A DNA stretch of 64,000 bases, taken from the NCBI GenBank assembly GCA_944319735.1, contig CALUEU010000001.1, positions 248,001 through 312,000 on the forward strand. The letters run 5' to 3'. The notes under the pieces were generated by a model, which was not told the origin of the DNA, made no database searches, and saw only the letters and a program-made list of their open reading frames with translations. The position numbers were made by a program, and so were the translations under genes. Source of the DNA: an uncultured Methanomassiliicoccus sp. Lineage in GTDB: Archaea; Thermoplasmatota; Thermoplasmata; Methanomassiliicoccales; Methanomassiliicoccaceae. Position 1 is the first letter of the stretch. Each line of letters begins with the position of its first letter. This document shows positions 16,099 through 58,152 of the stretch, one piece after another.

Positions 16099-16147
16099 AT
16101 TGAATATACTGAAAGGTTCCCTTAATAAATTAACCGGAGGAATTTTC

Positions 16148-18064: not shown

Positions 18065-18065
18065 A

Positions 18066-20825: not shown

Positions 20826-22000
20826 TGTGACTCCCCATAAATGCAACACAATCTGTCTGCAGAAACACCAAAATCAAATTCATTAACTGCTAAATCTCGG
20901 GCTTTACAGCTCATCGATTCAATTCTGCTTTCATCATTGAAAAGTTCCATGATGGAGGCTGCAAAGTCTTCTGGAGTAGGTGATGCCATAAGCCCTGCAC
21001 CCTCGTTGATTATATCAGATTCAACACCCCTACCAAATGAAGATAATATCGGTATGCCGCAAGATATAGATTCTATAGCAGTAAATGGAAACAGATCGTT
21101 TCTACTGCTTAATGCATAAAGATCAGCACAGTTGTATAGCTTGGCTAGGTCATAATTGTCAAGATATTCGGTGTGGATGGAGACTGTGTCTGTGAGTCCT
21201 AATTTCCCAATGAGTCCTCTTAGATTTTCTTCCTCGGGACCTGTTCCTTTGATGATTAACTTAAAATCTGGATTTTCATCTTTTATTATTCTAGCCGCTT
21301 TGACTAAGATATCCATACCTTTATTATGATGCAGCCTTCCAACTGAAATAACTACATTGTGATTTTCAGACAATCCAAATTCCCGACGAGACTTTTCTTT
21401 ATCCATCGGTTTGAATATTGAACAGTCTACACCAGAGTGAACTACTTGCGTAATCAGTTCCTCTTCAAACCCACAATCTGTAAGATGATTTGCTGCAGAT
21501 TTTGAACGTGGAATTATTTTACAATTTCTTGTTATTCTTTTTCCAAGTGTATTGTAAAATTGTTTTTGGATCGTTCCTGCTACGCCTTGCATTAGGATGT
21601 CTAGTTCCTGCCAGACAAACAACTTTGAAAATGAACTTTTGACGGCAGAATTGGAATACATAGTCCCCATCTGGAAAACTTCTCCAGATTGGACTACATC
21701 AAATGCATTCCGTCTGAGATGTGCTTTCAATGATGGCGTACAGGGAAATACAGCCGGAGGAAAGATAGATGACATCCGTGTTGGTACGTATACGATATTT
21801 ACATCATCTAAAGAACATTTTATAGCTGGCTCATATGCATCAGAGATGTATATTGTTACTTGGTGGCCTCTAGAAGCTAGAGTCGTGGCTAATTTTGTGA
21901 TGTTTAAGTCTTTATCTGATTCAGGTACTGGATTTTTCACTGCTCGTCCTTTGGGAAGGTCTGCAGTTTTGGTAATCAGGTTTACCAAAGCGATGTTCAT
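20822..22000 (-). CDS. GT4 family glycosyltransferase
   Basis: 392 residues, GT-B fold. NIALVNLITKTADLPKGRA begins the acceptor domain; the C-domain shows VVISVGRLHHNKGMDILVKA, FKLIIKGTGPEEENLR, YALSSRNDLFPFTAIESISC and GIPILSSFGRG, the last two containing the catalytic E-x7-E. AGAGGGATATGAA precedes the ATG at 22000, which falls 1 base after the stop of the upstream membrane protein. It overlaps the next gene by 4 bp. Confidence 0.9.
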   Translation of the reverse strand: MNIALVNLITKTADLPKGRAVKNPVPESDKDLNITKLATTLASRGHQVTIYISDAYEPAIKCSLDDVNIVYVPTRMSSIFPPAVFPCTPSLKAHLRRNAFDVVQSGEVFQMGTMYSNSAVKSSFSKLFVWQELDILMQGVAGTIQKQFYNTLGKRITRNCKIIPRSKSAANHLTDCGFEEELITQVVHSGVDCSIFKPMDKEKSRREFGLSENHNVVISVGRLHHNKGMDILVKAARIIKDENPDFKLIIKGTGPEEENLRGLIGKLGLTDTVSIHTEYLDNYDLAKLYNCADLYALSSRNDLFPFTAIESISCGIPILSSFGRGVESDIINEGAGLMASPTPEDFAASIMELFNDESRIESMSCKARDLAVNEFDFGVSADRLCCIYGESQ

Positions 22001-22001
22001 T

Positions 22002-23666
22002 TCATATCCCTCTGGCAAACATTACCTGATACCGTCCGTTATCGTAGACCTTAGAGTTCATTACTTCTTGATTTAGATAGAAATCATATCTATCTTCTAT
22101 ACCCCATTGTTTATACCATAATTCGGTAGTATCATCAAACAGATATGAACCCGATCCAGAACTTGAAGCCATCTCAAGCACGGTCGTTGGATAAGTTGCA
22201 CTGAATTGCAGTCTTTGATAAGATTCTCCATCGCCCCAGTCTTTGTACGGATAATACCCTCCAATTACATAGGTTTGAGGAACTTCCTCAGATAGGTAAT
22301 CTGTAGCTGCAATACTTTCTGCACTGCTGGTATACAAACTCTGCTGGTAGAACAAAGTTGATGCGCACGAGACGACGATACCAGCCACGAGTATAGTGGT
22401 TAATACTGCAGTAACTTTCCTTTTCCTCAAAAGGGTTGGCACAAAGAACAATGGCGCTACCAGCATCAGATATAAAATTCCCCTATCGTAGATTTGCCCA
22501 TTGAAAAACAGAGCATCTAGAGGGATGGCGATTGCCGGTATGAATAGCAGCGGAAGTATGTGCTTTGGAATTGAAATTTTCTTTCTATTAAATACATAAA
22601 TTAATAGTCCAATTAGAGTTAACAAACCAAATATGAGGATTGTAAATGTACGAATCTGAGGATAAAGTGTCCCAAATATATTTTCAGTACCTGTCCTCAT
22701 TTCATATTGGTTTTGAACTGCCTGATCCATGAATCCTAGATATTGAACCTGACCTAGCACAAACTGTGTCAGGTTTAGAGTAAATTCGGCTGCTCCGATT
22801 AAAGACCATATTATCCAGATTATCAAGAATAAAGCGGCTGGCCAATGACCATTTGCAGGAGGTGCAGTAGTCTTAACTCTATGATATATTCTGCTGATTA
22901 TTTCCTTTGCAACCACTGCACTCAATACGAACAATACAGTAGTCGGGTGAGATACAGTCAAAAATGCAAACAATGCAACGGCAGTGCCTTTCCACGCGGT
23001 TCCCTGTCTTTCGAGACATACAAAGATTAGAAGCCCAATTGCCAGACCTATGGATTGTGGAGAGAAATTAAACTGCAGCCATACATTTACAAAAGCGGCG
23101 ACTAGAAATGCCACTCTGTATCCTGTTGATGGAACATATGTCCTAACAAACAAGTATATTGCAACTAGCGTGAAAGCTGCAGCAAATACTGGATAAAATC
23201 TCAAAAATCCAAGTACATTTGGATCGGCAATGACTGAAAATGTTGCAGCGAATGCAAAGAACCCAGGATAGTTATATGCATATGAATAATCAGGATCATC
23301 TGGGATAAAACCAGTTGATGCCATCTCAAATGAGGAATTGTAATGCATATATGAGTCCCATACAACAGGGTATGTTTGAAACAAAGCAGTGGATCCCCAT
23401 AATGTAACAAAGACAGCCATAGCTTGTATGAAAAATACCCTTTCTGAAGCAGTGAATGCTCCTATTGCAAGGGACAATATCATTATCCCCATTCCAATCC
23501 AGAAACCAATAGGGAGCATTCCAAGAAGCCCAAACGGTTCAGATACTGGAATGTGCTGTATTGAATATCCGTATGATGAGATTATGCATATTGCTAATCC
23601 CACCAACGTCAAAAGATAGAGGGGTAGTGGACGTACCCGGTATTCATTGTTCAAGAATTTCCCCAT
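22002..23666 (-). CDS. Polytopic membrane protein, GT-C glycosyltransferase-like
   Basis: About 554 residues with some twelve hydrophobic spans, followed by a 110-residue exported C-terminal domain (from about residue 440). The loop after the third span reads VVWDSYMHYNSSFEMA with an Asp, as in the first extracytoplasmic loop of GT-C enzymes that use polyprenyl-phosphate sugars; NYPGFFAFAATFSVI follows. I infer a transferase, ligase or polymerase acting on lipid-linked glycan outside the membrane. The start is uncertain: the ATG at 23666 precedes the first span, and one at 23741 is possible. It heads the minus-strand half of the locus, divergent from 23875. Confidence 0.7.
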   Translation of the reverse strand: MGKFLNNEYRVRPLPLYLLTLVGLAICIISSYGYSIQHIPVSEPFGLLGMLPIGFWIGMGIMILSLAIGAFTASERVFFIQAMAVFVTLWGSTALFQTYPVVWDSYMHYNSSFEMASTGFIPDDPDYSYAYNYPGFFAFAATFSVIADPNVLGFLRFYPVFAAAFTLVAIYLFVRTYVPSTGYRVAFLVAAFVNVWLQFNFSPQSIGLAIGLLIFVCLERQGTAWKGTAVALFAFLTVSHPTTVLFVLSAVVAKEIISRIYHRVKTTAPPANGHWPAALFLIIWIIWSLIGAAEFTLNLTQFVLGQVQYLGFMDQAVQNQYEMRTGTENIFGTLYPQIRTFTILIFGLLTLIGLLIYVFNRKKISIPKHILPLLFIPAIAIPLDALFFNGQIYDRGILYLMLVAPLFFVPTLLRKRKVTAVLTTILVAGIVVSCASTLFYQQSLYTSSAESIAATDYLSEEVPQTYVIGGYYPYKDWGDGESYQRLQFSATYPTTVLEMASSSGSGSYLFDDTTELWYKQWGIEDRYDFYLNQEVMNSKVYDNGRYQVMFARGI

Positions 23667-23874
23667 CTTTGAATCATATTTCAACAGAGTGTTTATAAAA
23701 TTAACCGATGAATATGGTGATGTTTTCAAATGAACTGTCATTAAAACCGAAATTATAAGTATCTCTCCCTTACACAATAGAATCAATTCTAAGCAAACGC
23801 TGGATAGCGAGATATGATTCTGAAAAAATGATCTCTGCAGGATATAGCGTGAGCTATGAATGAGGATGCCAGAA
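23667..23874. promoter_or_regulatory. Divergent promoter region of the glycan locus
   Basis: The 208 bp between the two outward-facing glycan operons contain no convincing gene. The region is AT-rich and should hold both promoters. I see no strong palindrome that would mark an operator. Confidence 0.45.
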
Positions 23875-24711
23875 ATGTCCAAAAAGGTAGCAATTATCAT
23901 ACCTGCATTGAATGAAGAAGAAAGTATAGCAGATGTTATTGATAATGTGTTAAACGTTGGTCTCCATAATCCAGATTATAATCTATTTCTAGAAGTTATA
24001 GACGGTCGTTCATCAGATAATACAGCAAAAATTGCAAGAGAAAAAGGTGCAAATGTAATAATTCAAAAAGGAAAGGGAAAGGGCGTCGGAATCAGGCAGA
24101 CCATTGATCTTTGCTTCCCAAAGAATGTTGTAGATAGGACCTTGTCTCTTGCGTGCGGAAACTGCAATAATATCCAAGATATTTCTTCACTTCTAGATAC
24201 TAATTATATAATAATGTTGGATGCCGACGGAACATATCCACCAGAGCATATTCCAGATGTGATTGCTGCCCTCGAATCTGGTGAAGATGTTGTTATGGGA
24301 TCACGATTCAAAGGCACTATTGAAGAAGGTGCCATGACTAAAATGAATAGAGTTGGTAATAGAATCCTGAGTACTCTGGCAGCAATATTGTACAATCATA
24401 AATGCAGTGATATATGCACGGGAATGTGGGGATTTAGAACTGATGCATTAAAAGTATTGCAGTTAGAATCTAAGCATTTTGAACTAGAAGCAGAATTATT
24501 TGCTGAATCTGTAAAAAAGGGACTGAATGTAGGAGAGGTTCCGATCAGATATTTACCAAGGCGTGGAGAGACTAAATTAGTTCCAGTGGCAGCAGGAATC
24601 TCTATACTGTCAATGATAGTAAAAAGAAGATTTTTGAATGCTGGAGGAGGTTTTGGAGTCCGATTAATGAAGCCTAAAGAAAATTCTGCAAATTCAATTC
24701 GTTTTGGATGA
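23875..24711 (+). CDS. GT2 family glycosyltransferase, dolichyl-phosphate sugar synthase-like
   Basis: 278 residues. VAIIIPALNEEESIADVIDNV, EVIDGRSSDNTAKIA, IMLDADGTYPPEHI (the D-x-D metal site) and VVMGSRFKG match the DPM/DPG synthase group, which charges polyprenyl phosphate with a sugar on the cytoplasmic face. CTGMWGFRTDALKVL and FELEAELFAESVKKGLNVGEVPI are also typical. There is no C-terminal membrane pair. Between strands 2 and 4 it has an extra cysteine-containing insert (LACGNCNNIQD). GAGG lies 9 bases before the ATG at 23875. The next gene starts 4 bp after the stop. Confidence 0.9.
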   Translation: MSKKVAIIIPALNEEESIADVIDNVLNVGLHNPDYNLFLEVIDGRSSDNTAKIAREKGANVIIQKGKGKGVGIRQTIDLCFPKNVVDRTLSLACGNCNNIQDISSLLDTNYIIMLDADGTYPPEHIPDVIAALESGEDVVMGSRFKGTIEEGAMTKMNRVGNRILSTLAAILYNHKCSDICTGMWGFRTDALKVLQLESKHFELEAELFAESVKKGLNVGEVPIRYLPRRGETKLVPVAAGISILSMIVKRRFLNAGGGFGVRLMKPKENSANSIRFG

Positions 24712-24715
24712 TTAT

Positions 24716-25888
24716 ATGAAAATTGCAATGATTACTCCAGAATTTCTTAGTTGGGGAGGGATAGGGAGCTATACAATACAACTTTCAAAACATCTTCCAT
24801 CTGAATTTGAAATGCATTTGATATGTTTAGGTGGAAATGAATGTTCATGCGATATTGATGTACACAGCCTTGGAGAGTCGAAAGATACATTTTTCTGCAA
24901 TGGACAATTTCAATACAGACTATGGCGTTCATTTAGAAAATTACAGGATGAGAATAAATTTGATCTCATACACGCCAACCATGCTCAGATGCCAGACATC
25001 TTGATGAAACTTTGGCATAACAACATGCCTTCGATAACGACTGTGCACAGTACAATTGGATCTCAGCGGCTTGGCACTAAGAATTCAGCTGCCCCGGTGG
25101 AACGCCTAGAAAAATCAGAACGTATGACCTATGCACTTTTTCCAATATTATCAGCTACTGAAAAATTCTACTTAAAAAGGTCACCCAATCTCATATTTGT
25201 TTCAGAGTATATACGAGCGTGGTGTGTAGATAGAGTAGGTGTAGGAATAGGAGCAGAAGTTATTCCCAATGGTATAGATACAAATGTATTTTCACATCAG
25301 GAATACAGTAAAGCAATAGAACATTTTCCACAACTTGACGGCATTGAAAATATCGTTTTATTTTCTGGAAGAATGATCGCTCTTAAAGGAATAGAAACTG
25401 CAATATTAGCTAAAAAAGAGCTTGATGAAAAAACTTGTTTTGTCTTTGCAGGAAATGGAGATGCCTCGAAATGGATCTCTTATTCTCATTCAATTGGTTT
25501 GAGTGATAAGGACTGCCTATTCCTCGGACCAGTGTCTTATGAAGAAATGCCATATCTATATTCTTTAGCCTCTGCATTTATTCTTCCTTCTTTTTCCGAA
25601 AGTTTTCCATTGACGATTCTAGAAGCCATGTCATGCGGAGTTCCGGTAATTGCTTCAGATATCGGCGGAGTTCCTGAAATTGTTCAAAATGAAAAAGATG
25701 CCATATTGATAAATGCTGGAGATAGTAAAGAACTGTCAAATGCAATATCTAGGATATTGATTGATGATAATTTTGTAAATAATATTAAAATTAACGCACG
25801 TAACAAAATTTTAGATAAATTCAATGTGGAAACTATGGCAAAAAACACTGCGAACGCATACATAAAAGCTATTGAGGGGTCTAAATGA
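24716..25888 (+). CDS. GT4 family glycosyltransferase
   Basis: 390 residues, GT-B fold. KIAMITPEFLSWGGIGSYTIQL gives the N-terminal glycine loop; NIVLFSGRMIALKGIETAI, FVFAGNG, ILPSFSESFPLTILEAMSC and GVPVIASDIGGVPEIV define the donor domain with the E-x7-E. It lies between a GT2 and a radical SAM gene in a plus-strand operon; the next gene overlaps its stop by ATGA. Confidence 0.9.
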   Translation: MKIAMITPEFLSWGGIGSYTIQLSKHLPSEFEMHLICLGGNECSCDIDVHSLGESKDTFFCNGQFQYRLWRSFRKLQDENKFDLIHANHAQMPDILMKLWHNNMPSITTVHSTIGSQRLGTKNSAAPVERLEKSERMTYALFPILSATEKFYLKRSPNLIFVSEYIRAWCVDRVGVGIGAEVIPNGIDTNVFSHQEYSKAIEHFPQLDGIENIVLFSGRMIALKGIETAILAKKELDEKTCFVFAGNGDASKWISYSHSIGLSDKDCLFLGPVSYEEMPYLYSLASAFILPSFSESFPLTILEAMSCGVPVIASDIGGVPEIVQNEKDAILINAGDSKELSNAISRILIDDNFVNNIKINARNKILDKFNVETMAKNTANAYIKAIEGSK

Positions 25889-27300
25889 AAGTTCTTCTTG
25901 TAAATCCACCTAGATACAATGGAGTATCTGTTATACGTGAAGAGAGATGTGAAGTCACAGAAAGATATTCTGTATTGGAGCCTTATTCATTATTGCAGAT
26001 AGCTTCACTTCTAAGAAATGATGGACACAGCGTATCATTCATAGATTTAAATGGATTGGATATGAGATATGATGCTCTGAAGGATAAACTCGACAGAACT
26101 AAGCCTGATGCTGTTCTGTTTCGTTTTACCCCCACCACATTTGATCATGACATAAAAACAGCTAGCATAACTAAAGAATTAGATCCAGACATACATACAG
26201 GAGGATTATGCTGGACATTACATACTCTTGGATCACAAGTTATGAATGAAGCTCCAGATCTTGATGCATACATAACCGGTGAGTATGAAGTTGCCTCTCC
26301 CACTTTGATTAATTCCTGGGAAAGGGGAAATGATGTGTCACCAGGGGTTATGACAAAACATGGATATGGCGGTGACGTGGAACCATTGAAAGATTACGAT
26401 TCTCTTCCACTTCCCGCATATGATTTACTTCCCAATCTGGATCCGTATTTTGTAACTGCCCCTGCAGGCCAACCATTCAGCATAATGTATACCAGCAAAG
26501 GATGCCCGTTCAAATGTTCATTCTGCACAGTAGCCGGCACTCCATTAAAAATGAAATCTTCACAGAAGATAATTGAAGAGCTTAGATATCTTAAAGATCA
26601 TTACAGCCTTAGAACCGCTTCATTTTTTGATGAAACATTTACTTTTAATAGAAAAAGAACAGAAGAAGTCTGTAGATTACTGAAAGAAGAAAATCTTGAC
26701 ATCAAATGGTATTGTAATACAAGAGCACATTTGGTAGATAAAGAACTTTTAGAAATGATGAGATCTGCTGGTTGCCGTGGGGTATCATTTGGAATTGAAT
26801 CTGGAAGTCAACGTATTTTAGATTCTGTAGGAAAAAATATTAAAGTAGATGAAGCAAAAAATGCAATAAAATGGGCTAAAGAAGCTAAGATCAAAACATT
26901 CTGTTCATTTATTCTTGGACTTCCTGGAGAAAACTGGGAAAGTGTGTCTGAAACTATGCGTTTTGTGAAAGAAACTTTACCCAATTCAGCACAATTCAAC
27001 GTGGCCGTTCCATATCCTGGAACGAAATTGTATGAAGACACCTATGGAAAAGATACACCGATTACAGATTTCAGGTTACTGTATCAGGACAGTGCAATAG
27101 CTGGTACTGATGAACTTACTCCAGAAGACCTTAACAATGCTAGAGAAGCAGCATACAGAGCGCTGTATACATCAAGTAGATGGTGGGGGTCAAATCTAAA
27201 ACATGTAATTACAGAACCTTCGGATCTTGATTTAGCATTCAGATATGCTTTGAAAATTGTAAATAATTTCGTGTTCCACAAAATGAAGGATGCTCATTGA
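25885..27300 (+). CDS. B12-binding-domain radical SAM protein
   Basis: 471 residues. The N-terminal 150 residues form a Rossmann-like cobalamin-binding-type domain (PYSLLQIASLLRNDGHSVSF...DLNGLD), without the D-x-H-x-x-G of base-off binders. The radical SAM core has the [4Fe-4S] motif C-x3-C-x2-C in GCPFKCSFCTVAG, followed by FDETFTFNRKRTEEVC, GVSFGIESGSQRIL and FCSFILGLPGENWES. Relatives methylate or rearrange unactivated carbons. In a glycosyltransferase operon it probably modifies a sugar or lipid carrier, but no substrate can be named. Confidence 0.85.
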   Translation: MKVLLVNPPRYNGVSVIREERCEVTERYSVLEPYSLLQIASLLRNDGHSVSFIDLNGLDMRYDALKDKLDRTKPDAVLFRFTPTTFDHDIKTASITKELDPDIHTGGLCWTLHTLGSQVMNEAPDLDAYITGEYEVASPTLINSWERGNDVSPGVMTKHGYGGDVEPLKDYDSLPLPAYDLLPNLDPYFVTAPAGQPFSIMYTSKGCPFKCSFCTVAGTPLKMKSSQKIIEELRYLKDHYSLRTASFFDETFTFNRKRTEEVCRLLKEENLDIKWYCNTRAHLVDKELLEMMRSAGCRGVSFGIESGSQRILDSVGKNIKVDEAKNAIKWAKEAKIKTFCSFILGLPGENWESVSETMRFVKETLPNSAQFNVAVPYPGTKLYEDTYGKDTPITDFRLLYQDSAIAGTDELTPEDLNNAREAAYRALYTSSRWWGSNLKHVITEPSDLDLAFRYALKIVNNFVFHKMKDAH

Positions 27301-27308
27301 GGAATCGT

Positions 27309-28478
27309 ATGGAAACTATGAAGATATTGATGGTCTCAACATTCTATCCGCCATACCATCTGGGCGGAGATGCAATTCACGTAAAGTATCTTACCGATGA
27401 ACTAGTGAAGGCAGGACACGAAGTACATGTAATTCATAGTTTAGATGCATATGATCTCAAAAAGAAGGGAAAGAAACAGGATGAGAAGGATTCTGCAGAA
27501 CATATCTATAGGTTAAAAACAGAATTGGGATCGTTTTCTGCAGCCGGCAGCTATCTAACTGGTAAAAATCGAAGCGCAGACAGACTTGTAGATAGAATAT
27601 GTTCTGAAATTAAACCGGACTGGATACACTATCACAATATTTCCATGCTAGGGTGTGGTGTGTTAAATAAAGGTAAAACTAAGAAAATATACACCTGCCA
27701 TGATCATTGGCCTTTTTGTCAACGCAACGACTATATGAAATTTGGAGAATATATCTGCGATGTACAAAACTGCTTAAGCTGTTCGATAAAATCACATCGA
27801 CCAGTTAGATTAATTAGTACAAATCAAATCATGTCCGAAATCAAACGTGTAGATGCTATAATTTCTCCATCGAGATATATGAAAAATATGCTGTCTGCAT
27901 TTGGAGCAGAGTCTGTTCTGATTAAAAATTTTGTTCCTCGCCCTACAGAAAACACGAATGTTAAAAGTGATCCACACTTCATATATACAGGAGTTCTTGA
28001 AAAACATAAAGGATTAGATATATTAGTCAATGCTTACTTGAAATCAAAGTCAGACTTTGAATTACACATTCTTGGAGATGGATCTTTAAAGGAAAACATC
28101 AAGAATATGTCTGATAAAGGAGTAAAATATTTAGGATTTCTTCCAAGATCAAAATTAATTCCAGAAGTTGCATCATCACTCTGTATGATTGCACCGTCAA
28201 TATGCGGTGAAAATTCTCCATTGTCTTGCATTGAGGCATTATCTGTCGGTGTACCTCTCATTGTTTCACCGAATGGAGGATTACCAGAGCTTGCAGAAAA
28301 CTGCGGAATTATTTCGCCACCCACTGAAAAAGAATTCGCTTCTGCACTGATTCGAATTGATAGTGATAAAGAATTGAGGGATAAAATGTCGCACAATGCA
28401 TTGAGGAAATATGAGAAAGAGCATAGTCCAGAAGCCTTCATGAAAGAATATTTTTCATTAGTGGAGGCATTGATATGA
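27309..28478 (+). CDS. GT4 family glycosyltransferase
   Basis: 389 residues, GT-B fold. KILMVSTFYPPYHLGGDAIH starts the acceptor domain; FIYTGVLEKHKGLDILVNAY, FELHILGDGS, APSICGENSPLSCIEALSV and GVPLIVSPNGGLPELA form the donor domain. A cysteine-rich patch (ICDVQNCLSCSI, near residue 155) is common in the CapM-like group. GAGGA stands 5 bases before the ATG at 27309, which settles the start. ATGA overlap with the next radical SAM gene. Confidence 0.9.
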   Translation: METMKILMVSTFYPPYHLGGDAIHVKYLTDELVKAGHEVHVIHSLDAYDLKKKGKKQDEKDSAEHIYRLKTELGSFSAAGSYLTGKNRSADRLVDRICSEIKPDWIHYHNISMLGCGVLNKGKTKKIYTCHDHWPFCQRNDYMKFGEYICDVQNCLSCSIKSHRPVRLISTNQIMSEIKRVDAIISPSRYMKNMLSAFGAESVLIKNFVPRPTENTNVKSDPHFIYTGVLEKHKGLDILVNAYLKSKSDFELHILGDGSLKENIKNMSDKGVKYLGFLPRSKLIPEVASSLCMIAPSICGENSPLSCIEALSVGVPLIVSPNGGLPELAENCGIISPPTEKEFASALIRIDSDKELRDKMSHNALRKYEKEHSPEAFMKEYFSLVEALI

Positions 28479-29869
28479 AGGTAGCACTGATAAATACTGG
28501 TTTTGAACCTGGTGAAGGTGATTTGCGACCTGCACCCCCATATGGAATAATGACAATAGGTGCATACCTAGAGGCTAAAGGACATGATATAACATTATTT
28601 GATTGGAGTGGAGAAGAGATAGATGATGAAAAAAGAAGAACTCTTATTAATTTAAAACCAGACATTATTGGGATACATACAAAAATTTCTACAGCCCTGC
28701 TGAGGGCGATTAAAATCAGCAAGTGGGCCAAAGTAAAGGAGATTCCAGTAGTCTGGGGAGGTCCTGGAACTATGGTTATTCCAGAAATTATGCTAAAAGA
28801 AGGTCCAGTCGATTATTTAGTGTTAGGCGAGGGGGAAATTACGACTGCAGAACTTATAGAATGCTTAGAAAATGGATCTCCTCTGAAAGATGTTAAAGGA
28901 ATAGCGTATTTAGAAAACGGGGAATATGTAAGAACTCCCCCACGAAGTAGGATGACAGATCTTGATTCTCTTCCATCACCTCTTTGGAATAAACTTGGAG
29001 ATCTCTCTAAATACTTCACTCCGCTGCATGGAAGAAATGCAGTGTCGATTGTCACAAGCCGTGGCTGCCCTGGAAATTGTACATTTTGTTATTCTAAAAT
29101 GATGTGGGGCTACAAATGGCATGCGTTTAGCCCGCAAAGAGTTATAGAGGATATGGAAAAAATCATGTCGCTGGATCCAAGAATAAATGGATTCATCATT
29201 ATGGATGATCTGTTTGCCACTGATCCTAAAAGAGTGGAAGAGATCTGTTCATTAATAATCAGTAAAAAACTTGATATTATCTGGAATTGCGAAATACGAG
29301 CAGACATGATAAGTGAATCTCTTTTAGATATTATGAAGCATGCTGGATGTAAACAAATTTTAGTTGGTGTAGAGTCTGGCTCTGATAGATTATTATCAAT
29401 GGTTAGGAAAGATATTACAGCAGATGAAATAATCCATGCATCCAATCTTATTCATAAAGCGGGCATGGAAGTTTACGCAATGGTCATTAATGGTCTTCCT
29501 ACTGAAACTAAGGAGGACATTAAAAGTACAGAACGCATGCTTGACATAATAAAGCCAGAATATACTGAATTTCTCACATATATGCCATATCCAGGAACAG
29601 CTCTTTTTGACTCAGCTGTAGAAAATGGATTTAATCCCCCAGATAATTTAGAAGGATGGGGAGACATGGGGACATTTAGTGTAGCTTCCATTAAAGACAA
29701 GGGATTGTCAAGTTACGCCAACAAAATGTATATTTCAATGGAAAAAAGAACTAAACGAAAAGCGACTATGAATTCATATCTTAAATCAATTACAAAGGAT
29801 CCAATCACTGCACCAATGAGAGCTGTTAAATTCATGATGAAACGCAAGGGGGACAATAATGGAGCATAA
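28475..29869 (+). CDS. B12-binding-domain radical SAM protein
   Basis: 464 residues. The N-terminal domain PPYGIMTIGAYLEAKGHDITLFDWSG and PVVWGGPGTMVIPEIML...VLGEGE is the B12-binding-like half. The radical SAM core shows GCPGNCTFCYSKMMWGYKWH (C-x3-C-x2-C), then MDDLFATDPKRVEEIC, QILVGVESGSDRLL and AMVINGLPTETKEDI. It resembles the BchE/MagIV group. It is the second such gene in this operon, each placed after a GT4 gene; whether the two work in series is unknown. The stop overlaps the acyltransferase start by 11 bp. Confidence 0.87.
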   Translation: MKVALINTGFEPGEGDLRPAPPYGIMTIGAYLEAKGHDITLFDWSGEEIDDEKRRTLINLKPDIIGIHTKISTALLRAIKISKWAKVKEIPVVWGGPGTMVIPEIMLKEGPVDYLVLGEGEITTAELIECLENGSPLKDVKGIAYLENGEYVRTPPRSRMTDLDSLPSPLWNKLGDLSKYFTPLHGRNAVSIVTSRGCPGNCTFCYSKMMWGYKWHAFSPQRVIEDMEKIMSLDPRINGFIIMDDLFATDPKRVEEICSLIISKKLDIIWNCEIRADMISESLLDIMKHAGCKQILVGVESGSDRLLSMVRKDITADEIIHASNLIHKAGMEVYAMVINGLPTETKEDIKSTERMLDIIKPEYTEFLTYMPYPGTALFDSAVENGFNPPDNLEGWGDMGTFSVASIKDKGLSSYANKMYISMEKRTKRKATMNSYLKSITKDPITAPMRAVKFMMKRKGDNNGA

Positions 29870-30964
29870 AATTCTAACTTCACAAGATGAAGTTGAGAGC
29901 TTAGAAAGAGATTGGGAAATTCTAAGGAAATGTTGTGATGCGTCTATTTACTCATCTCACGCTTGGGCTCTGGAATGGCTGGAAAAATTTGGATCTGATA
30001 TACACACAAACGTGATTGTACTAGAAGAAGATGGTAAAATATGTGCCATTGCACCATTCATCATCTGTGAACAGAAAACATCAGGTATTAAAATCAAGAA
30101 ATTAACAATGATAGGAAATGGTAATGGTACCACAGAGCTATATGATCTTAGCATACTCTGGTGTGGAGAGGCTGAAAGTATAGTAGATTCTCTTATAGAA
30201 GCAATAGATCAATTAGACTGGAATGTTCTCCAGCTTCATGATATAAGAGAAGATGAGGTCTCATCGTTACTTTATGAAAAGATATCCTCATTGTGGGACA
30301 CAGATGAGATAGTGAAAATTCCATGTCCATATGTTGATTTAGAGTCCGTTACAGATGCTTTGGATAACGCTTCGTCGCGTACTAGAAGAATGATCAGAAA
30401 AACATTGCAGTCTTTAGATGATGACGCACGAATCAGATACAGAAGGGTGGATATACCTGAAGAAGTGAAGGAAGCCGCAGAGTTCTACGCTCTGCACCAT
30501 ATCTCTAGATGGGAAGACAGAGGTGGCAGCATATTTTCAAATGAAGACATTGCGTCGTTTTTGAAAGACATTACAACATATGCGGCTAACGAAGGATATG
30601 GAGAAGTGTTTGAAGTTTGGATTGATGGCACGCTTGCATCACAAATGATATGTTTTGAAGATGGGGATGTTATGAGAGCGTATAGGGTTGGTATGCAACC
30701 CAGATTTTCACAGTTGTCTCCTGGAAATCTAGTATCATATTATGCCATGAGTGAAGCACTAAAGTCTGGATTCACACGATTTGACTTTGGTGCTGGCTCT
30801 GAAGAATACAAATACAGATTAGGATCGAAAGACAGATTTTTAATGCGCATACAGTCAAAACGGGGATCTATGAAAACCATATCCAAACTGTCTTCACTTC
30901 CGGGAGTAAAATACGTATTAAACAAAAGTGGAGTTAAGGAGAATGCTTTGAAAGCAATAAATGA

Positions 30965-30968
<4 letters not shown>
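29859..30968 (+). CDS. CelD/BcsL-type GNAT acyltransferase
   Basis: 369 residues, same family and layout as the protein at 14331-15374: YSSHAWALEWLEKFGSD at the start, SRTRRMIRKTLQSL in the middle, and QLSPGNLVSYYAMSEALKSG plus FDFGAGSEEYKYRLG at the acceptor end. It likely transfers an acyl group to a glycan precursor. It overlaps the radical SAM gene by 11 bp and its stop interlocks by 4 bp with the convergent pncC. Together the two paralogues bracket the glycan locus. Confidence 0.85.
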
Positions 30969-44645: not shown

Positions 44646-46841
44646 ATGAAAAAATGGAAACTGGGAGCGTTAGCTCTCATCTTTTTTCTATTGCTTGTGG
44701 CAGTATTTTCTGTAACGTTGGTTAGTGACGACTCCCAGGACGGGCAAAACACTAACAACGTTTCAGTTTTGGCTGCAAGCAGTAGTGATCTGACATTTAC
44801 TCCTAACAGTTCTTCCAGTCCTACATATTATACTGTAAGTGCTGCCAATACGTCAATGTCAGGAAACCTTGTAATTCCTGAGACTTACAATTCTCTGCCT
44901 GTTAAGAGTATAGCCAGTAACGCATTTTATGGATGTACTGATCTGACATCTGTAACTATTCCGTATTCAATAACGTCTATCGGAACTTCTGCTTTTGCAA
45001 ACTGTACATCATTAGAATATGTTTACTATAATGCTACATCGTGTAATAGTACATCATACTCTGTTGACAATTCAGCTTGGAAAAATGCAGGTGCTGACGT
45101 ACAGGGCGGATTGAAAGCTGTAATAGGAAACAATGTCACAAGTGTACCAAATTATGCATTTTACGGTGCTAATAATCTTACTTCACTGACAATAAGTCCG
45201 TCTGTAACTTCGATTGGATCCAGCATAATATACGGATGCGATAAATTACAAGATGTATATTTCAACGCTTTAGCGCTTACATCTACAAATTCTTCGTTTT
45301 CGCATTCTGCTACAATTTATGATGCTGGTGTTAATCTTCACATAGGGGCAGATGTTACAAAAATACCAACTTACTTATTTTCAGGCTTTAACACTCTTGG
45401 AACTGTTTATTACAATTCGTCTTCAATAGTTGGAATTTCATATACTGCTGATAATACAGCCTGGAAAAATGCTGGATCAGCAATAGAAGGAGGAGCTAAG
45501 CTAATAATAGGAGATAATGTTACAACGCTTGCATCATCTGCATTTGCTTATTTTTCAAATCTCTCATCAGTTCAGTTTAATGCTGAATTAGAGATTATAA
45601 AAGCATCTGCATTTGCTCATTGTACATCTCTTGTAGACATCGTACTGCCTGATTCAGTAGTTACTCTTGAGTCGTCTGCATTCTATGATTGTTCAGCATT
45701 GGAGAATATAACAATAGGAAAGGGTCTGAAATCTCTTAATAATACTTCATTTGCAAACTGTCCTCTTCTGAAAAATGTGTATTATAATTCAACGGCTGGA
45801 GATTCTTACTCTTACTCATCAACTAACTTCCCATTCTATCAGTCAGCGACAGAAGGATTTAAACTGATATTTGGTGAGGATGTAACTAGTATTCCGGATT
45901 ATAAATTCAGATTCTCAAACGTATCTTCAATTGAGTTTAGCCCGAATCTTAAGACTATTGGATACAACTCATTTGATTCATGCGTTATGCTTGAATCAAT
46001 ATCTCTGCCTGAAAATCTTGAATCAATCGGTTCATCGGCGTTTACCTCGTGTACATCGCTGAAGACAATTGAGTATAATGTCAGACTGCTGCTTGATCTT
46101 AATTCTAGCATATTTTCTGGATCAGAGTCAGGAGTTACAGTCATAATCTCTGACTCGGTAAATTACATTCCTAACAGCTTGTTCAATTTCAGTACGTTGG
46201 CTGTTGTGCATTACAATGCATCTTCAGTGTCTCTGCATCCGTATACGGCTAATACATCTCCCTGGAAAAACGCTGGATCAGCAATAGAAAATGGAGTCAG
46301 CTTAATAATTGGAGATAACGTAAAAGAAATTCAGGGTTATGCTTTTTACAATTTTAATAATTTAAAAAGTGTAACTATCGGTCCTGAAGTAGAGCGTATA
46401 AAATCTAATGCATTTGCTGTTTGTACATCTCTTGTTGATGTATCAGTTGCAAAGAATACAGTGATAGAGTCTAACGCATTTGATGACAATATACAGTTAT
46501 CCTACGTTGACACTGTCACAGTACATTTTAATAGCAATGGAGGTTCAGAGCTAAAAGATAAATACTTACTAACAGGAAATAAATTAACAAAGCCTGAAGA
46601 CCCGGTAAGAGATGGTTATAATTTTGCAGGTTGGTATACTAATTTAGCATTGACCAAAGAATACAATTTTGATAATCCAGTAACGGAAAATATCACATTG
46701 TATGCTAACTGGTCAAACGTCAATGATGATCCAGTAACAGATGATCCAATAAATAACGAAAAAGAAACAAATTATACTTGGATTCTTTGGGTCATTGTCA
46801 TTTTGATTGCTCTTTATCTGATCTTTGGAGGTCGGAAATAA
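44646..46841 (+). CDS. BspA-like leucine-rich repeat surface protein with InlB B-repeat and C-terminal anchor
   Basis: 731 residues. An N-terminal signal/anchor (LGALALIFFLLLVAVFSVTL) leads into about 560 residues of BspA-type LRR_5 repeats, recognisable by units such as TSIGTSAFANCTSLEYVYYN and LESSAFYDCSALENITIG. A longer module containing W-K-N-A-G-S-A-I-E-x-G-x-x-L-I-I-G-D-N-V recurs at least three times. Near the C-terminus is one InlB B-repeat (VHFNSNGGSEL...GYNFAGWYTN...NITLYANWS), then a linker and a membrane span (WILWVIVILIALYLIFG) with a short basic tail. It is displayed outside the cell or virion; BspA proteins bind host or microbial surfaces. Its stop overlaps the next ATG as TAATG. 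Confidence 0.9.
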   Translation: MKKWKLGALALIFFLLLVAVFSVTLVSDDSQDGQNTNNVSVLAASSSDLTFTPNSSSSPTYYTVSAANTSMSGNLVIPETYNSLPVKSIASNAFYGCTDLTSVTIPYSITSIGTSAFANCTSLEYVYYNATSCNSTSYSVDNSAWKNAGADVQGGLKAVIGNNVTSVPNYAFYGANNLTSLTISPSVTSIGSSIIYGCDKLQDVYFNALALTSTNSSFSHSATIYDAGVNLHIGADVTKIPTYLFSGFNTLGTVYYNSSSIVGISYTADNTAWKNAGSAIEGGAKLIIGDNVTTLASSAFAYFSNLSSVQFNAELEIIKASAFAHCTSLVDIVLPDSVVTLESSAFYDCSALENITIGKGLKSLNNTSFANCPLLKNVYYNSTAGDSYSYSSTNFPFYQSATEGFKLIFGEDVTSIPDYKFRFSNVSSIEFSPNLKTIGYNSFDSCVMLESISLPENLESIGSSAFTSCTSLKTIEYNVRLLLDLNSSIFSGSESGVTVIISDSVNYIPNSLFNFSTLAVVHYNASSVSLHPYTANTSPWKNAGSAIENGVSLIIGDNVKEIQGYAFYNFNNLKSVTIGPEVERIKSNAFAVCTSLVDVSVAKNTVIESNAFDDNIQLSYVDTVTVHFNSNGGSELKDKYLLTGNKLTKPEDPVRDGYNFAGWYTNLALTKEYNFDNPVTENITLYANWSNVNDDPVTDDPINNEKETNYTWILWVIVILIALYLIFGGRK
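45462..45488 (+). repeat. Internal repeat of the BspA-like gene, copy 1
   Basis: The sequence encoding WKNAGSAIE is matched at 46263-46289 with a single base difference (AATGCTGG versus AACGCTGG), 801 bp (267 codons) downstream. A diverged third copy encodes WKNAGADVQ near 45080. The near identity suggests recent duplication or recombination within the gene. Confidence 0.75.
46263..46289 (+). repeat. Internal repeat of the BspA-like gene, copy 2
   Basis: Second copy of the element at 45462-45488, differing at one base. Recombination between the two would delete 267 codons in frame. Confidence 0.75.
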
Positions 46842-48694
46842 TGAAGAATAAGAAATTAATTTTAGGAGCTTTAGCTCTTGCATTATCATTTGTCTTTATT
46901 GCATCAGCATATGCAATTACATCGGATAGTTCATCTGATGTGTCTGATGATAATGTTTGTTTAGGTGCGTCGGGATCTGCGACTGTTGGCAGCAGATTTA
47001 CAATGTCTGTATCTGTATTATCCAGGAATGCGGCTGAGATAGCAAATGATGATTTATATGCATCATTATCCGGAGCACCCTCTTGGGTATCAATATCAGG
47101 ATCTACGATTACAGGTGTACCTACTGCTGCAGGTACATATACATTTACTGTTAATGTTAGAGTATCTGTTGATTCGTCTGCATATGATAGTGAATCTGTT
47201 ACTCTTAGAGTCTCATCTGCAAGCAGCGGAACAACAACACATTCAATTACATATGATACAAATGGAGCTACATTTTGGGCTCTTGATTATACAAAACGTA
47301 CAGTATCTAGTGGTACATCAATATCTCTTCCTGGCGTTAATGATATTGTAAAAGCAGGATATACTTTTCAAGGCTGGAAGATTGGTAGCACAGTATATAC
47401 TCCTGGAGCATCATATACAGTTAACAGTAGTGTTACAGCTATTGCTCAGTGGTCTGTAAGATCTATTGATGTAACATATAATGCAAACGGTGGAGAAGGT
47501 ACATATTCTGAATCTGTTGGTTATGATTCTTCTATTACTCTGCCGTCTGATGGATTTAGTAAAGAAGGTTATGAACTTGCTGGATGGACAAGCGGCACAT
47601 ATGGTAATATTAAGAGTTATGCGTGTGGAGAGATAGTTCCTATAACTGGTACTATTACATTTTATGCGGTCTGGAAGGAACCTACAGTTACGTTTGATTG
47701 CGATGAGGCAATATCATACATATCCTCAAATGCTGGAGAGCTTGCTCTCAATAATAACAGTATTACATTGATTGGTGGTACTCATATTACGCTTCCTTCG
47801 TTATCTACACGTCTTGTAGATGGTTGGGTTCAGGTTGTTATAAATTGGAAGGATGAGGCTGGTAATGCTGCTGATTTTGATTACATAGTTACAAAATCAG
47901 TTACTCTTTCTCCTGTTTGGCATAATTATTTCCGTGTTGTTGTTGATGATCCTACGGCGACTGTAGAAATTGACAGTCAGTTTGCGTCATATCATAAGCA
48001 TGCTGTCAATTGGGGTGATGGCTATGCGTCTGTATCAGACAATCTTAGCGATTCCATCACACATACATATCAGACTAATGCTACATATGGTGTTACATTA
48101 TCATCTACATCATTATTCAGAACTGTCAGCGCTGTTTACTCTATATCTATAAGCGGTGCATCTGATAGTGTAGATGTTGTTACAGTAACATTTAACAGCA
48201 ACGGCGGATCTAGTGTTCCTAGTCAGACAATTGTAGTTGGGGCATCGATTATTGCTCCTGTAGATCCTTATAAACCAGGATATTCATTCTTAGGCTGGTA
48301 TAGTGATGAAGATCTGATAAATGAATATGATTTTACAACTCCTGTTTCTCAGGATATTACTCTTTATGCATCATATGTAGATATTGGCATGTGTGTTGTA
48401 TCATTTGAGACGAATGGCGGATCTTCGATACAAAGTCAGCATGTTAAGATAGGTACATCGATTGTCAAGCCTTCTGATCCTACTAAAGAAGGATACACAT
48501 TTGCAGGTTGGTATCTTAATTCAGATCTCACTGTCCCATATGATTTTAATACGATATTGAATGAAAATATCAAGTTATATGCAGATTGGGATAAATCATC
48601 AGAAAAAGGTGGATCATTCAATTATCTTTGGTTGTTCCTGCTGATCATAATTATATTTGTGATAATTGCAGTTGGCAAGGATGTGAGCAGATGA
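46841..48694 (+). CDS. InlB B-repeat / PKD-domain surface protein with C-terminal anchor
   Basis: 617 residues from the ATG at 46841, which overlaps the previous stop by one base. Signal peptide LILGALALALSFVFIASAYA; an Ig-like putative-binding domain (SGAPSWVSISGSTITGVPTA, AAGTYTFTVNV); two InlB/Listeria-Bacteroides repeats (GYTFQGWK; GYELAGWTSG); a PKD-like domain with VNWGDGYASV and THTYQ...YGVTLS (about residues 385-440); two further InlB B-repeats (GYSFLGWYSDEDL; GYTFAGWYLNSDL); then a membrane span (YLWLFLLIIIIFVIIAV) and a short basic end. No sortase motif. An adhesin-type surface or virion protein; ATGA overlap with the next gene. Confidence 0.88.
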   Translation: MKNKKLILGALALALSFVFIASAYAITSDSSSDVSDDNVCLGASGSATVGSRFTMSVSVLSRNAAEIANDDLYASLSGAPSWVSISGSTITGVPTAAGTYTFTVNVRVSVDSSAYDSESVTLRVSSASSGTTTHSITYDTNGATFWALDYTKRTVSSGTSISLPGVNDIVKAGYTFQGWKIGSTVYTPGASYTVNSSVTAIAQWSVRSIDVTYNANGGEGTYSESVGYDSSITLPSDGFSKEGYELAGWTSGTYGNIKSYACGEIVPITGTITFYAVWKEPTVTFDCDEAISYISSNAGELALNNNSITLIGGTHITLPSLSTRLVDGWVQVVINWKDEAGNAADFDYIVTKSVTLSPVWHNYFRVVVDDPTATVEIDSQFASYHKHAVNWGDGYASVSDNLSDSITHTYQTNATYGVTLSSTSLFRTVSAVYSISISGASDSVDVVTVTFNSNGGSSVPSQTIVVGASIIAPVDPYKPGYSFLGWYSDEDLINEYDFTTPVSQDITLYASYVDIGMCVVSFETNGGSSIQSQHVKIGTSIVKPSDPTKEGYTFAGWYLNSDLTVPYDFNTILNENIKLYADWDKSSEKGGSFNYLWLFLLIIIIFVIIAVGKDVSR

Positions 48695-50565
48695 TAAAAG
48701 ATAAACGTCGTTTGTTTGCATCACTTGCGTTGGTTGTAGCATTGTGTATGCTTGCTGTTACAGCAGCTACTCCTATAATCTTAGAAAATTCTGGAGAGAC
48801 AAATCAAGATATGACTGTTAATCAAGATATTGTGCTATCAGGCATATTTGATGGTCATGTTGATATTGTTGATGTGCTTGTTATGATGTGTCCAGTTGTT
48901 GGTTTGACGTGGAACATTGCAGAATATTTTAATCAGGGAAATTCTGGCGGCGGTGGAGGTGGATCAGGTGATCCTGAACAGATTGCTAAGGATACTAGAG
49001 CACATGAGTCAGAGTTAGTTTATACCATATTAGCAAAAAATGCAGAATTGCTTGCTAACAGCATAAACGGATACGGTGACATTTGGAAGTTTACGAATAA
49101 TTACTGGATGAGACAGGCGGAAGTTGCTGCTGCGGAACGCTGGTCTACAACGTCTCAATACTATGCTCCTTACATTCTTGAAAGGTCTGGATTGATGGGT
49201 AATTTAGCAAAACTCTTTGAAAATGTTGAAGACGGCCCTGATGCTACTTTTGAGCTGTTAAACGATAGGCTAACGGCTTGGAAGAATGCATCAGGATATA
49301 ATTCAATGAGTATTGTTTTACAGTATGGAAATAATACAATTACTGATTCATCTAATCTTGATATTAAGCTTCGTAATATAATTAATGTGTCAGCTCAGTC
49401 TGCAAGCGTTGCTTATCTTGATTCAAGAGAGCTTTGGGTTAGTAATGGCAATGCAGTTATTACATCAGAAGACGGTACGCGTTATACTCTCAATTCTGGA
49501 TATAATAATCTTGTATCAATGGGTATACCATCTGGCATATATTCATTCCAGTCTGGACATGCTTATGCAGGATCGATTATACCTGTTATAGCTTCATCTT
49601 CAGCAACTGTACATACAGGATTAGTTGTAGAATCTAGCAGCGATTTCAAGATTGCTCAGTATTACAACAACCAGGTACTGATTGACAATGTCAATTATAC
49701 AGATCTGAGCATTCACATAGACACTGGAGACGGTACCGTATCATCAAATGTTGATATTATGCCGATTCTGTCAATGCATAAGCTGCTGCTTGATGAGGCT
49801 TACAATTCATTATTGAAGTCTCATGTTGCTGCTCAGGCTGCCTGGAAGATCTTTGACACTGCAGAGGAAGCTAATATCCTGCTGTCCCCTTCTTCTCTCG
49901 TACCAAATTTAGGAGATATACAGGTATCATCTGAAGAGCTCTATACGCTTACAGTTCTGTATCTCGCACAGATTGCAGACTACTATGAAAGAGCAAACGG
50001 TAATCTGACAAAAACAGGATTTAACATTTCTCCTGAGTCTTTGGATCTGTACATCAGAGGTAACATATATGATCAAAACGGAACGCTGATCTACGAATCT
50101 GCAGTATTTACGCCTTACATCTGGCTTGATTCGATGAACATCCTGGAAGGAACTAACAAGTTTTCTCAGTCAGGATATATAGCAGTCTGGGGAGAGTCTG
50201 ACAACATACGCAATTGGCCAGGTGCTGACGGATATGCTCCTCAGTTAGTTTCTGTCTCGGCTGGATACTCATTTAGTGCTGCTCAGATCATGCATCATGA
50301 TAGGCTTGTATCGTCAGTAGCATTAGATGTGTTGGAAGTCGAGAAATGGAACGACATTGAGATAATACCCGGTCCTGATCCGCAGCCGATTCCTCATGTT
50401 GTAGATCTTGCACCATACATAATGTGGATACTGATTGAAGCAGCTGTTATCTGGTTCCTTCTCTGGGAGCTTTTCAAGATGGAGAATTTGATCCTGCTGC
50501 TGCCTTCAGTTGTGCTGCTGCTCTTAGGTCTGTTTGGTGCTGACTGGATCGCAGGGATGGTGTGA
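48691..50565 (+). CDS. 624-aa membrane-anchored ectodomain protein with Gly-rich linker (spike/pIII-like candidate)
   Basis: The start at 48691 overlaps the previous stop by ATGA. After a signal peptide (LFASLALVVALCMLAVTAA) and a short hydrophobic stretch comes a pure glycine linker (NSGGGGGGSG, near residue 94), then a 480-residue ectodomain with long helices (RAHESELVYTILAKNAELLA; EVAAAERWSTTS) and beta-rich middle. The C-terminus has two membrane spans (PYIMWILIEAAVIWFLLWEL and LILLLPSVVLLLLGLFGADW). Glycine linkers and a C-terminal anchor are features of inovirus pIII adsorption proteins; pleolipovirus spikes also have a C-terminal anchor. No sequence-level homologue is recognised. Confidence 0.8.
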   Translation: MIKDKRRLFASLALVVALCMLAVTAATPIILENSGETNQDMTVNQDIVLSGIFDGHVDIVDVLVMMCPVVGLTWNIAEYFNQGNSGGGGGGSGDPEQIAKDTRAHESELVYTILAKNAELLANSINGYGDIWKFTNNYWMRQAEVAAAERWSTTSQYYAPYILERSGLMGNLAKLFENVEDGPDATFELLNDRLTAWKNASGYNSMSIVLQYGNNTITDSSNLDIKLRNIINVSAQSASVAYLDSRELWVSNGNAVITSEDGTRYTLNSGYNNLVSMGIPSGIYSFQSGHAYAGSIIPVIASSSATVHTGLVVESSSDFKIAQYYNNQVLIDNVNYTDLSIHIDTGDGTVSSNVDIMPILSMHKLLLDEAYNSLLKSHVAAQAAWKIFDTAEEANILLSPSSLVPNLGDIQVSSEELYTLTVLYLAQIADYYERANGNLTKTGFNISPESLDLYIRGNIYDQNGTLIYESAVFTPYIWLDSMNILEGTNKFSQSGYIAVWGESDNIRNWPGADGYAPQLVSVSAGYSFSAAQIMHHDRLVSSVALDVLEVEKWNDIEIIPGPDPQPIPHVVDLAPYIMWILIEAAVIWFLLWELFKMENLILLLPSVVLLLLGLFGADWIAGMV

Positions 50566-55855: not shown

Positions 55856-55861
55856 TCTGTG

Positions 55862-56806
55862 ATGTTTATGGCGTTTCTTGCTCCTTTTGATGATTATCCT
55901 GATGATGCTTATGCTTGCATTAAGCAGATGTGTGACCATATGGCTAAGGAAGTCAATCAGTACACATCACGTACTGTAAAACATTACAGGGACGGCTGCA
56001 AGATTGTATTCGATATTCTGCTTGATAAGTATCCTGATATGCTGCCTTACACTGTTGACTTAGAGCAGGTTCAATGGTTCATATCATATCTTAAAGATCA
56101 TGATTATGCTGTTTCTACATCTAAAGGATACGTTCAATGTCTTCGTAAGATCTGCAAGTATTATCGCAGCGAAGTTTTCAAAGATTTTGAAATCAGATGG
56201 CCTCATGATATCCGCCCTCATGTTGACTGGCTTTCAGAAGATGAAGCTCATCAGTTACTGATGGTTCAAAAGACGCCTACTCAGGAGCTTATGCTTCATT
56301 TGGAGTTGTGTTTGGGTCTCAGGCGTGTTGAGTGTGCTAGGATTAAACTTAAACACATACATGATGGGTATATCGACATAATGGGAAAGGGACCTATGGG
56401 CGGAAAGCCTCGTACTGTTCCGTTTCATTCCGATACCCAGTATGTTTTAGACTATTACATGGAATATCGTACTAAGACAATTGAGTCATATCTCAAGAAG
56501 CACAGGAAGCCTATAGAGATTCCAAGAGAGCTTATGATTACTCAAAAATGCGTTGCGTTTGAAACTGATAAATGTACTGGATTAGATTATCATATGACTA
56601 AATTAGCTAAGAAAGTTGATTTTCATTTTTCTAATCATACGCTCAGACGGACATTTGGCCGTTTGATGTGGAAGGCTAAAGTAGATATTGAAACAATTTC
56701 AAAGTTTCTTGGCCAGGATGATCCTAACGTTACTTTGGCATATCTTGGATTGAATTTTGATGACATGTATGAAGCAATGAAATTATCCCCGTTTAGGAGC
56801 CGTTGA
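55862..56806 (+). CDS. Tyrosine recombinase/integrase
   Basis: About 314 residues. An N-terminal SAM-like core-binding domain (TSRTVKHYRDGCKIVFDILL; VSTSKGYVQCLRKICKYYRS) is followed by the catalytic domain: Arg in LCLGLRRVECARI, the H-x-x-R in SNHTLRRTFGRL, and the nucleophile Tyr near 294 in NVTLAYLGLNF. It integrates the element into tRNA-Pro; the gene is complete and ends 62 bp before attR. A GTG at 55859 is an alternative start. It follows the 48-aa gene by 6 bp. Confidence 0.93.
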   Translation: MFMAFLAPFDDYPDDAYACIKQMCDHMAKEVNQYTSRTVKHYRDGCKIVFDILLDKYPDMLPYTVDLEQVQWFISYLKDHDYAVSTSKGYVQCLRKICKYYRSEVFKDFEIRWPHDIRPHVDWLSEDEAHQLLMVQKTPTQELMLHLELCLGLRRVECARIKLKHIHDGYIDIMGKGPMGGKPRTVPFHSDTQYVLDYYMEYRTKTIESYLKKHRKPIEIPRELMITQKCVAFETDKCTGLDYHMTKLAKKVDFHFSNHTLRRTFGRLMWKAKVDIETISKFLGQDDPNVTLAYLGLNFDDMYEAMKLSPFRSR

Positions 56807-56904: not shown

Positions 56905-57129
56905 TTTTTAAGGGCTTTTCCTAGCGATCAAATATTCCATATCTTCCAGACAATTGCATGATTTAGATCAATGTGATTGATTGAAGAACTCTGAAATTCT
57001 TAGCATATTTAGTATCTTAATATTAATGTGTCAATATATGGTAATGTGTTATATATTGAATATTTGTTGAAGCTCCGATGCAGAATATTGAGTATCTGAA
57101 ATATCCCTTCAAATTTGAAAATTCTGAAA

Positions 57130-57140
57130 GGGGGGGGGGG
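57130..57140 (+). repeat. G11 homopolymer, tract 1
   Basis: Eleven G in a row near codon 18 of the acyltransferase frame, in an AT-rich neighbourhood. Ten G would join the ATG at 57078 to the main reading frame. Such tracts change length by slipped-strand pairing. Confidence 0.9.
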
Positions 57141-57761
57141 CAGTCGATCAGAAAATAAAACATTGCGTGGCATTACTGCATTAGCTGCGTTTTGTGTCGT
57201 GATCATTCACTGCAACGTTCCCGGAACGTTTGGAGATGTTGTGACTGGTTTAAGCAGATTTGCAGTACCTTGCTTTTTTATGATATCTGGTTACTATTTA
57301 TTTTCTAAAAACGGATATTTAGAAAAAATACCAAATAAGATCTGGAATACAGTAAAACTAATATTGATTCTTAAAGTAATGTATTTAATTATTGATTTTA
57401 TTTTACTGAAGAATGGCACCATTGGAATGAATGATGTGGCATATAATTTTATAATATCTTCAGATTATAATCAACATGTCTGGTTTTTATATGCACTTTT
57501 AGCATTGTATGTATTTAGTTATCTAGCGGCTAAGCATAATTTTGATATTAGCAGACTGTTTGGTATAGCCATTGTCATCATAGTCATTGATTTAATATTC
57601 TCTGAACTCTTGCCAGTATGTGGTTTTGATACCGTACAAATCAGTAATAAGATCTACCCCTTTATCGGATTATCATTTTTCATTATTGGATATTTGATCC
57701 GTAAAAATATGAAATATGTAAAATCACTATTAACTAACAAGCTATTAGCGATATCCGTGAT

Positions 57762-57772
57762 GGGGGGGGGGG
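57762..57772 (+). repeat. G11 homopolymer, tract 2
   Basis: Eleven G in a row (the first is the G of an ATG codon) two thirds into the gene. Ten G would join the middle frame to the downstream frame that encodes the last membrane spans. Confidence 0.9.
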
Positions 57773-58152
57773 CTGTCTGTTATCGAATCAATTTTTGTCA
57801 GCAGAACTAACCTATATTTCGGAATAATAGTATTTACAGTAGCCTTGTTTCTGTTTGCTATTAAAAACCCTAGTAAAATCAAATCCAGAATTCTAACATA
57901 CGTCGGAAGAGAGTTGTCTGGTGGCATATACATAATTCATCCAGCGATAATTCTTATTTTTGATCTGATGCAAACAAAAATAGAGGGTTTTGAGTATATT
58001 GAACCTGTCTTTGTGTACGCAATATCCGTCATAATGATGTTTTGTTTTAGTATTAGCATGAAGGTGATGAAAAACATGCAGAATCGGAGGGCAGTCATCA
58101 AACCCACATAAATGAGTTAGGTGGTTGTATGGCCTTCTGGCCATGCAAACCA

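Follow-up and report, generated by a model that had tools for sequence, protein, structure and literature searches.

An acyltransferase-3 gene in the genome of this uncultured methanogen contains two 11-base poly-G tracts that are, very probably, slipped-strand phase-variation switches belonging to a genome-wide set of such tracts. Simple-repeat phase variation is a textbook bet-hedging mechanism of bacteria, and the tracts described here suggest that archaea, too, probably use this kind of random gene switching, which is known chiefly from bacterial species. In the mechanism we propose, polymerase slippage at runs of 11 to 13 G would gain or lose single Gs, and these slips would often escape repair; the reading frame would open or close with tract length, cells of one population would differ at random in the surface adhesins and surface-modifying enzymes that they make, and the sequenced consensus would have captured the acyltransferase with both tracts OFF. 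We infer ongoing slippage in cells, and its effect on expression, from a pattern with several parts: tracts occur in and near genes far above chance, a one-base change toggles otherwise intact genes, surface genes and (in relatives) restriction-modification genes are enriched, and near-identical copies differ in tract length.

The window that we analyzed is a stretch of 64,000 nucleotides, in which the two acyltransferase tracts are the only G or C runs of at least 7 bases. As the initial annotation had claimed, both contain exactly 11 G and each is one base out of frame (Table 1). Its proposal that joining the frames yields a 343-residue acyltransferase-3 also holds, with the full protein (343-345 residues) obtained only when 10 or 13 G are present at both sites. 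The joined protein matches the PF01757 (Acyl_transf_3) profile with 96.7 bits in a single uninterrupted alignment covering profile positions 9-323 of 326, above the curated cut-off of 31 bits over the full domain; the broken downstream frame alone scores 74 bits, so that joining adds 22.7 bits. The best relative in the order (L187; 34% identity) has neither tract nor stop, and its alignment with the joined protein continues across each of the two junctions. At the first tract, which lies in the N-terminal tail ahead of the first membrane span, L187 has no insert or residues; at the site of the second it also has a GG pair, but its gene contains no G-run. Like OafA/OafB-type acyltransferase-3 proteins, the joined protein has the PF01757 domain and, where its first span begins, an Arg/His pair. 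The pair is not the R-x10-H core described previously, however: Arg30 and His44 are spaced R-x13-H, as they are in L187, L192 and L196, three of the four relatives that align clearly (the fourth is L189). The putative substrate is a surface glycan, which the enzyme would acetylate.

Table 1. Acyltransferase features in window coordinates, and G-tract loci elsewhere in the same genome and in relatives within the order.
Feature	Position	Strand	Tract and state
Start ATG and short raw frame	57078..57158	+	26 codons, then stop in the sequenced state; tract 1 OFF
Tract 1, G11	57130..57140	+	10 or 13 G required for acyltransferase frame
Main acyltransferase frame, 231 aa from TTG 57115	57115..57810	+	Spans tract 1; stops soon after tract 2 in the sequenced state
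In-frame TTG, Leu29 of joined protein	57163..57165	+	22 nt past tract 1; possible internal start
Tract 2, G11	57762..57772	+	10 or 13 G required; encodes Gly run M-GGG-L near residue 230 of 343
C-terminal acyltransferase frame, final membrane spans	57764..58111	+	Frame differs from the part upstream of tract 2
L040, adhesin-like gene			G11, ON
L041, adhesin-like gene			G12, ON; in frame, yet stop after 374 codons
L043, adhesin-like gene			G12, ON
L044, adhesin-like gene			G12, ON
L032, adhesin-like gene			G12, OFF; no convincing ATG start
L035, adhesin-like gene			G13, OFF
L036, adhesin-like gene			G11, OFF
L039, adhesin-like gene			G11, OFF
L042, adhesin-like gene			G11, OFF
L033			Tract 356 nt upstream of adhesin-like gene
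L034			G12, tract at contig edge
L037			Intergenic tract
L038			Tract upstream of ABC-transporter gene
L173, D12 methyltransferase, relative in order			Tract in frame, ON
L178, N6_N4_Mtase gene, relative in order			Interrupted by tract, OFF
L126, Mrr/ResIII restriction-type helicase, relative in order			Tract in frame, ON
L175, AAA-ATPase/PD-(D/E)XK gene, relative in order			OFF
L096, signal-peptide repeat protein, relative in order			ON

Some aspects of the acyltransferase sit less comfortably with phase variation. The initial annotation is to be corrected on the placement of the second tract, which is mid-gene (at about residue 230); such a position is less typical of phase variation than a 5' tract and counts against our preferred explanation. 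Further, one OFF tract is already enough to disable the gene, which bears against the two tracts acting as independent switches; random frames would leave the two of them ON together in roughly 1/9 of cells. The in-frame TTG at 57163 could serve as a start and so partially bypass tract 1, giving leaky translation.

The strongest rival to phase variation is that the acyltransferase alone has decayed and is an ordinary frameshifted pseudogene, even if the adhesin tracts described below are phase-variable. Its two tracts are OFF together, it is the sole PF01757 match of this genome, and no strong homologue was found in the rest of its family genomes. However, the tracts aside, its 343 codons contain no stop or frameshift, and both homology and membrane spans run on to the C-terminal end. 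It would be strange for a gene in decay to have come by two independent long G-runs through coincidence, given the chance expectation of such runs in a whole genome (about 0.04; see below), and we consider decay unlikely.

In the window, a XerA/XerC-like tyrosine recombinase gene (55859-56806) lies directly upstream of the acyltransferase gene, and the lower GC of the recombinase-acyltransferase region hints at mobile DNA. A run of glycosyltransferase-like and related genes (14331-30965), recognized from sequence only, is possibly a surface-glycan cluster whose product could be modified by an acyltransferase. A search of viral contigs with the tract flanks, made for other alleles, returned no match.

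In the genome as a whole (1.77 Mb in 21 contigs, 99.6% complete) we then counted 15 G-runs of 11-15 bases and two of 7; no G-run is 8-10 bases long. An order-1 Markov model predicts approximately 0.04 G or C runs of at least 11 bases by chance in a genome of 1.77 Mb, compared with the 15 observed. A or T runs longer than 8 bases are absent from the 212 kb of this genome that were sampled, although the genome is AT-rich. Eleven of the 15 tracts fall within coding sequence, and all 11 place G on the sense strand; the remaining four (L033, L034, L037 and L038), which lie ahead of genes, between genes or where a contig ends, have no clear coding role.

The initial annotation had proposed looking for further poly-G surface genes in this genome, and nine adhesin-like genes indeed carry a tract of 11 to 13 G directly after the signal peptide. 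Their frames are mixed, with four ON and five OFF, and the OFF genes keep intact frames downstream of the tract. Profile scans of eight of the nine (all but L039) matched List_Bact (Flg_new) repeats in L032, L035 and L036 and GLUG repeats in L042 and L043, and found nothing above the curated cut-off in L040, L041 or L044; the frames of L040, L042 and L043 extend past the end of the contig or of the available sequence. Signal-peptide proteins in this genome also occur without poly-G tracts: three are arranged in tandem within the window (44646-50562), and the middle one matches List_Bact/internalin-type repeats.

Could these runs instead be miscalled homopolymers, the true acyltransferase tracts having 10 G and the gene being intact and always ON? 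Homopolymer length is hard to sequence, the same correction of one base fewer is required at both acyltransferase tracts, and a 2025 archaeal resequencing study ascribes poly-C and poly-G differences to sequencing error (PMC11834397). However, miscalls of a single base in either direction could not yield 15 runs of 11-15 G at matching functional positions, nor would they explain the missing runs of 8-10 G, and several tract genes are in frame as read at G11 or G12. Even with single lengths off by one, the tracts would still be long enough for slipping. Miscalling does not account for a functional position that is shared by the long G-runs of many genes, and we assign it a low probability.

Differences between near-identical gene copies provide further evidence for slipped-strand switching. 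In three paralogues (C3, C7 and C20), the block that begins with the start codon and reaches ~35 nt beyond the tract varies, tract length aside, at only four positions; the tracts themselves are 13 G (C3, OFF), 12 G (C7, ON) and 12 G (C20, ON) long. Likewise, L034 (12 G) and L040 (11 G) share the same 66-nt 5' flank; these length differences are between gene copies of one genome rather than within a population, each species being represented by one genome and this genus by one species. The contigs of L034 and L040 both terminate in this identical 66-nt signal-peptide sequence just ahead of the G tract, and in L034 another signal peptide and a giant, tract-free gene come next.

The same copies weigh against programmed ribosomal or transcriptional slippage, by which some full-length protein would be made in every cell and the tracts would serve to attenuate translation. 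RNA polymerase, too, may slip on runs of 11 G, and the intact downstream frames of OFF genes would suit such a device. A programmed site would hold one fixed shift, however, whereas lengths and required frames vary among paralogues (in almost identical surroundings, 12 G is ON and 13 G is OFF) and some genes need no slippage to be read in frame; this explanation is less probable still. Least probable of all, to the point of being negligible, is selection of the G-runs as poly-glycine linkers: GGG or GGGG is indeed encoded just past the signal peptides, but GGG is the rarest Gly codon (49 of 543 Gly codons in sampled window genes), so that a need for Gly linkers alone would not yield GGG runs, over half of the coding tracts leave their gene out of frame, and relatives have tracts upstream of genes too. 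Each of the four rival explanations conflicts with at least one observed fact. By contrast, the phase-variation reading of the initial annotation gains support from the further tract genes, their mixed frames, the lack of a continuum at 8-10 G and the one-G difference between paralogues.

A profile search for MutL (PF01119) gave matches in 11 of 14 controls and in none of 15 family genomes. Where no MutL is detected, slips should often go unrepaired, and this result fits frequent unrepaired slipping at the tracts. The genome encodes a full McrA (982 bits) and a short PylS, a 284-codon frame that matches the C-terminal-domain model and is N-terminally short. PylS without the N-terminal domain is typical of Methanomassiliicoccales, and on the evidence of these two genes the organism is a Methanomassiliicoccales-type methanogen.

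In having many G/C tracts in a small genome, an enrichment of genes for surface proteins, for surface modification and, in the related genera, for methyltransferases, and mixed ON/OFF frames with the tract near the 5' end in most genes, this set resembles the phasomes of Campylobacter, Helicobacter and Neisseria (PMC6321876, PMC2823697, PMC5084427). It differs from them in belonging to an archaeal methanogen, in that its switching is predicted, in its large, repeat-containing adhesin-like targets, and in a tract cassette placed right behind the signal peptide. As in phasevarions (PMC3230613), poly-G tracts lie within DNA methyltransferase genes of relatives in the order (one OFF, one ON; Table 1), but these are in other genera only, and no methyltransferase tract was identified in the window's own genome. 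The methyltransferase and restriction-type genes that carry tracts elsewhere in the order belong to classes for which phase variation is classic. A survey of homopolymers in 99 genomes, 18 of them archaeal, reports mainly poly-A/T tracts of up to about 7-9 bases and, like us, proposes coding homopolymers as inactivation switches, archaea included; unlike the present tracts, poly-G/C runs showed no significant 5'-end placement in that survey, whose relevant passages describe no poly-G phasome (PMC2831843). A 2025 review lists the spread of simple-repeat phase variation across archaeal phylogenies as future work (PMC11868660), and a study reporting that Methanomassiliicoccales carry List_Bact-repeat and adhesin-like proteins does so without mentioning poly-G or homopolymers (PMC7883539). 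We found no account of poly-G phase variation in these methanogens in open-licence full text, and we claim no priority. If real, such switching could give host-associated archaea a changing surface, in both adhesins and chemistry, with which to face hosts, phages or neighbors, and would account for 'broken' adhesin-like genes in methanogen assemblies.

In the haloarchaeal virus phiCh1, switching proceeds by site-specific DNA inversion, not by homopolymer slippage. What phiCh1 shares with the present case is an archaeal setting and surface-adhesion proteins subject to phase variation, although phiCh1 is a virus and the tracts described here are in a cellular genome (Klein et al., 2012, cited in PMC8371274).

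Related genomes place these tracts in a wider setting. Within the order, 69 of 147 genomes contain a G-run of at least 11 bases; outside it, a phylum-wide sample shows at most 6 such runs per genome as against up to 76 inside, in counts that are not GC-controlled. Two draft genomes of one genus (G056 and G057) have 76 and 56 G-runs of at least 11 bases, far above all others, and this abundance may reflect either a genuinely enlarged phasome or faulty assembly. In the rest of the family, tracts are mostly exactly 10 G long and have no clear gene context, and we left them out of the counts; in one genus of this family (g2), a single signal-peptide gene (L062) carries a G10 tract and is OFF.

Of 109 tracts from relatives, 26 lie no more than 150 nt upstream of a gene scored as signal-peptide-like by a simple hydrophobicity rule (not SignalP), compared with 3.3% of 2689 control positions. 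We found no support for the possibility that related genera also use tracts inside signal-peptide genes, this arrangement holding for 1 of the 109 tracts against 2.3% of controls; in this sample, the placement of tracts inside the reading frames of adhesin-like genes is therefore peculiar to the window's own genome. On balance, we lean somewhat toward a broader proposal, in which poly-G slippage would be a main regulatory strategy of Methanomassiliicoccales methanogens. Their phasomes would comprise adhesins and surface-modifying enzymes and also DNA methyltransferases, the last making up archaeal phasevarions. Slippage would work in two modes: in this genome through tracts within reading frames, and in related genera through tracts that precede signal-peptide genes by ~36-56 nt, the latter with a possible tract-length-tuned RNA hairpin.

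Six loci from other genera of the order (L156, L160, L172, L174, L182 and L184) illustrate the upstream arrangement, with G11-12 at ~36-56 nt ahead of signal-peptide genes. In these 5' regions a pyrimidine-rich stretch and a Shine-Dalgarno sequence come after the tract and are able to pair with one another or with the G tract. With fold z-scores in a modest range, for the most part between about -1 and -2.4, an RNA switch tuned by tract length is only a lead.
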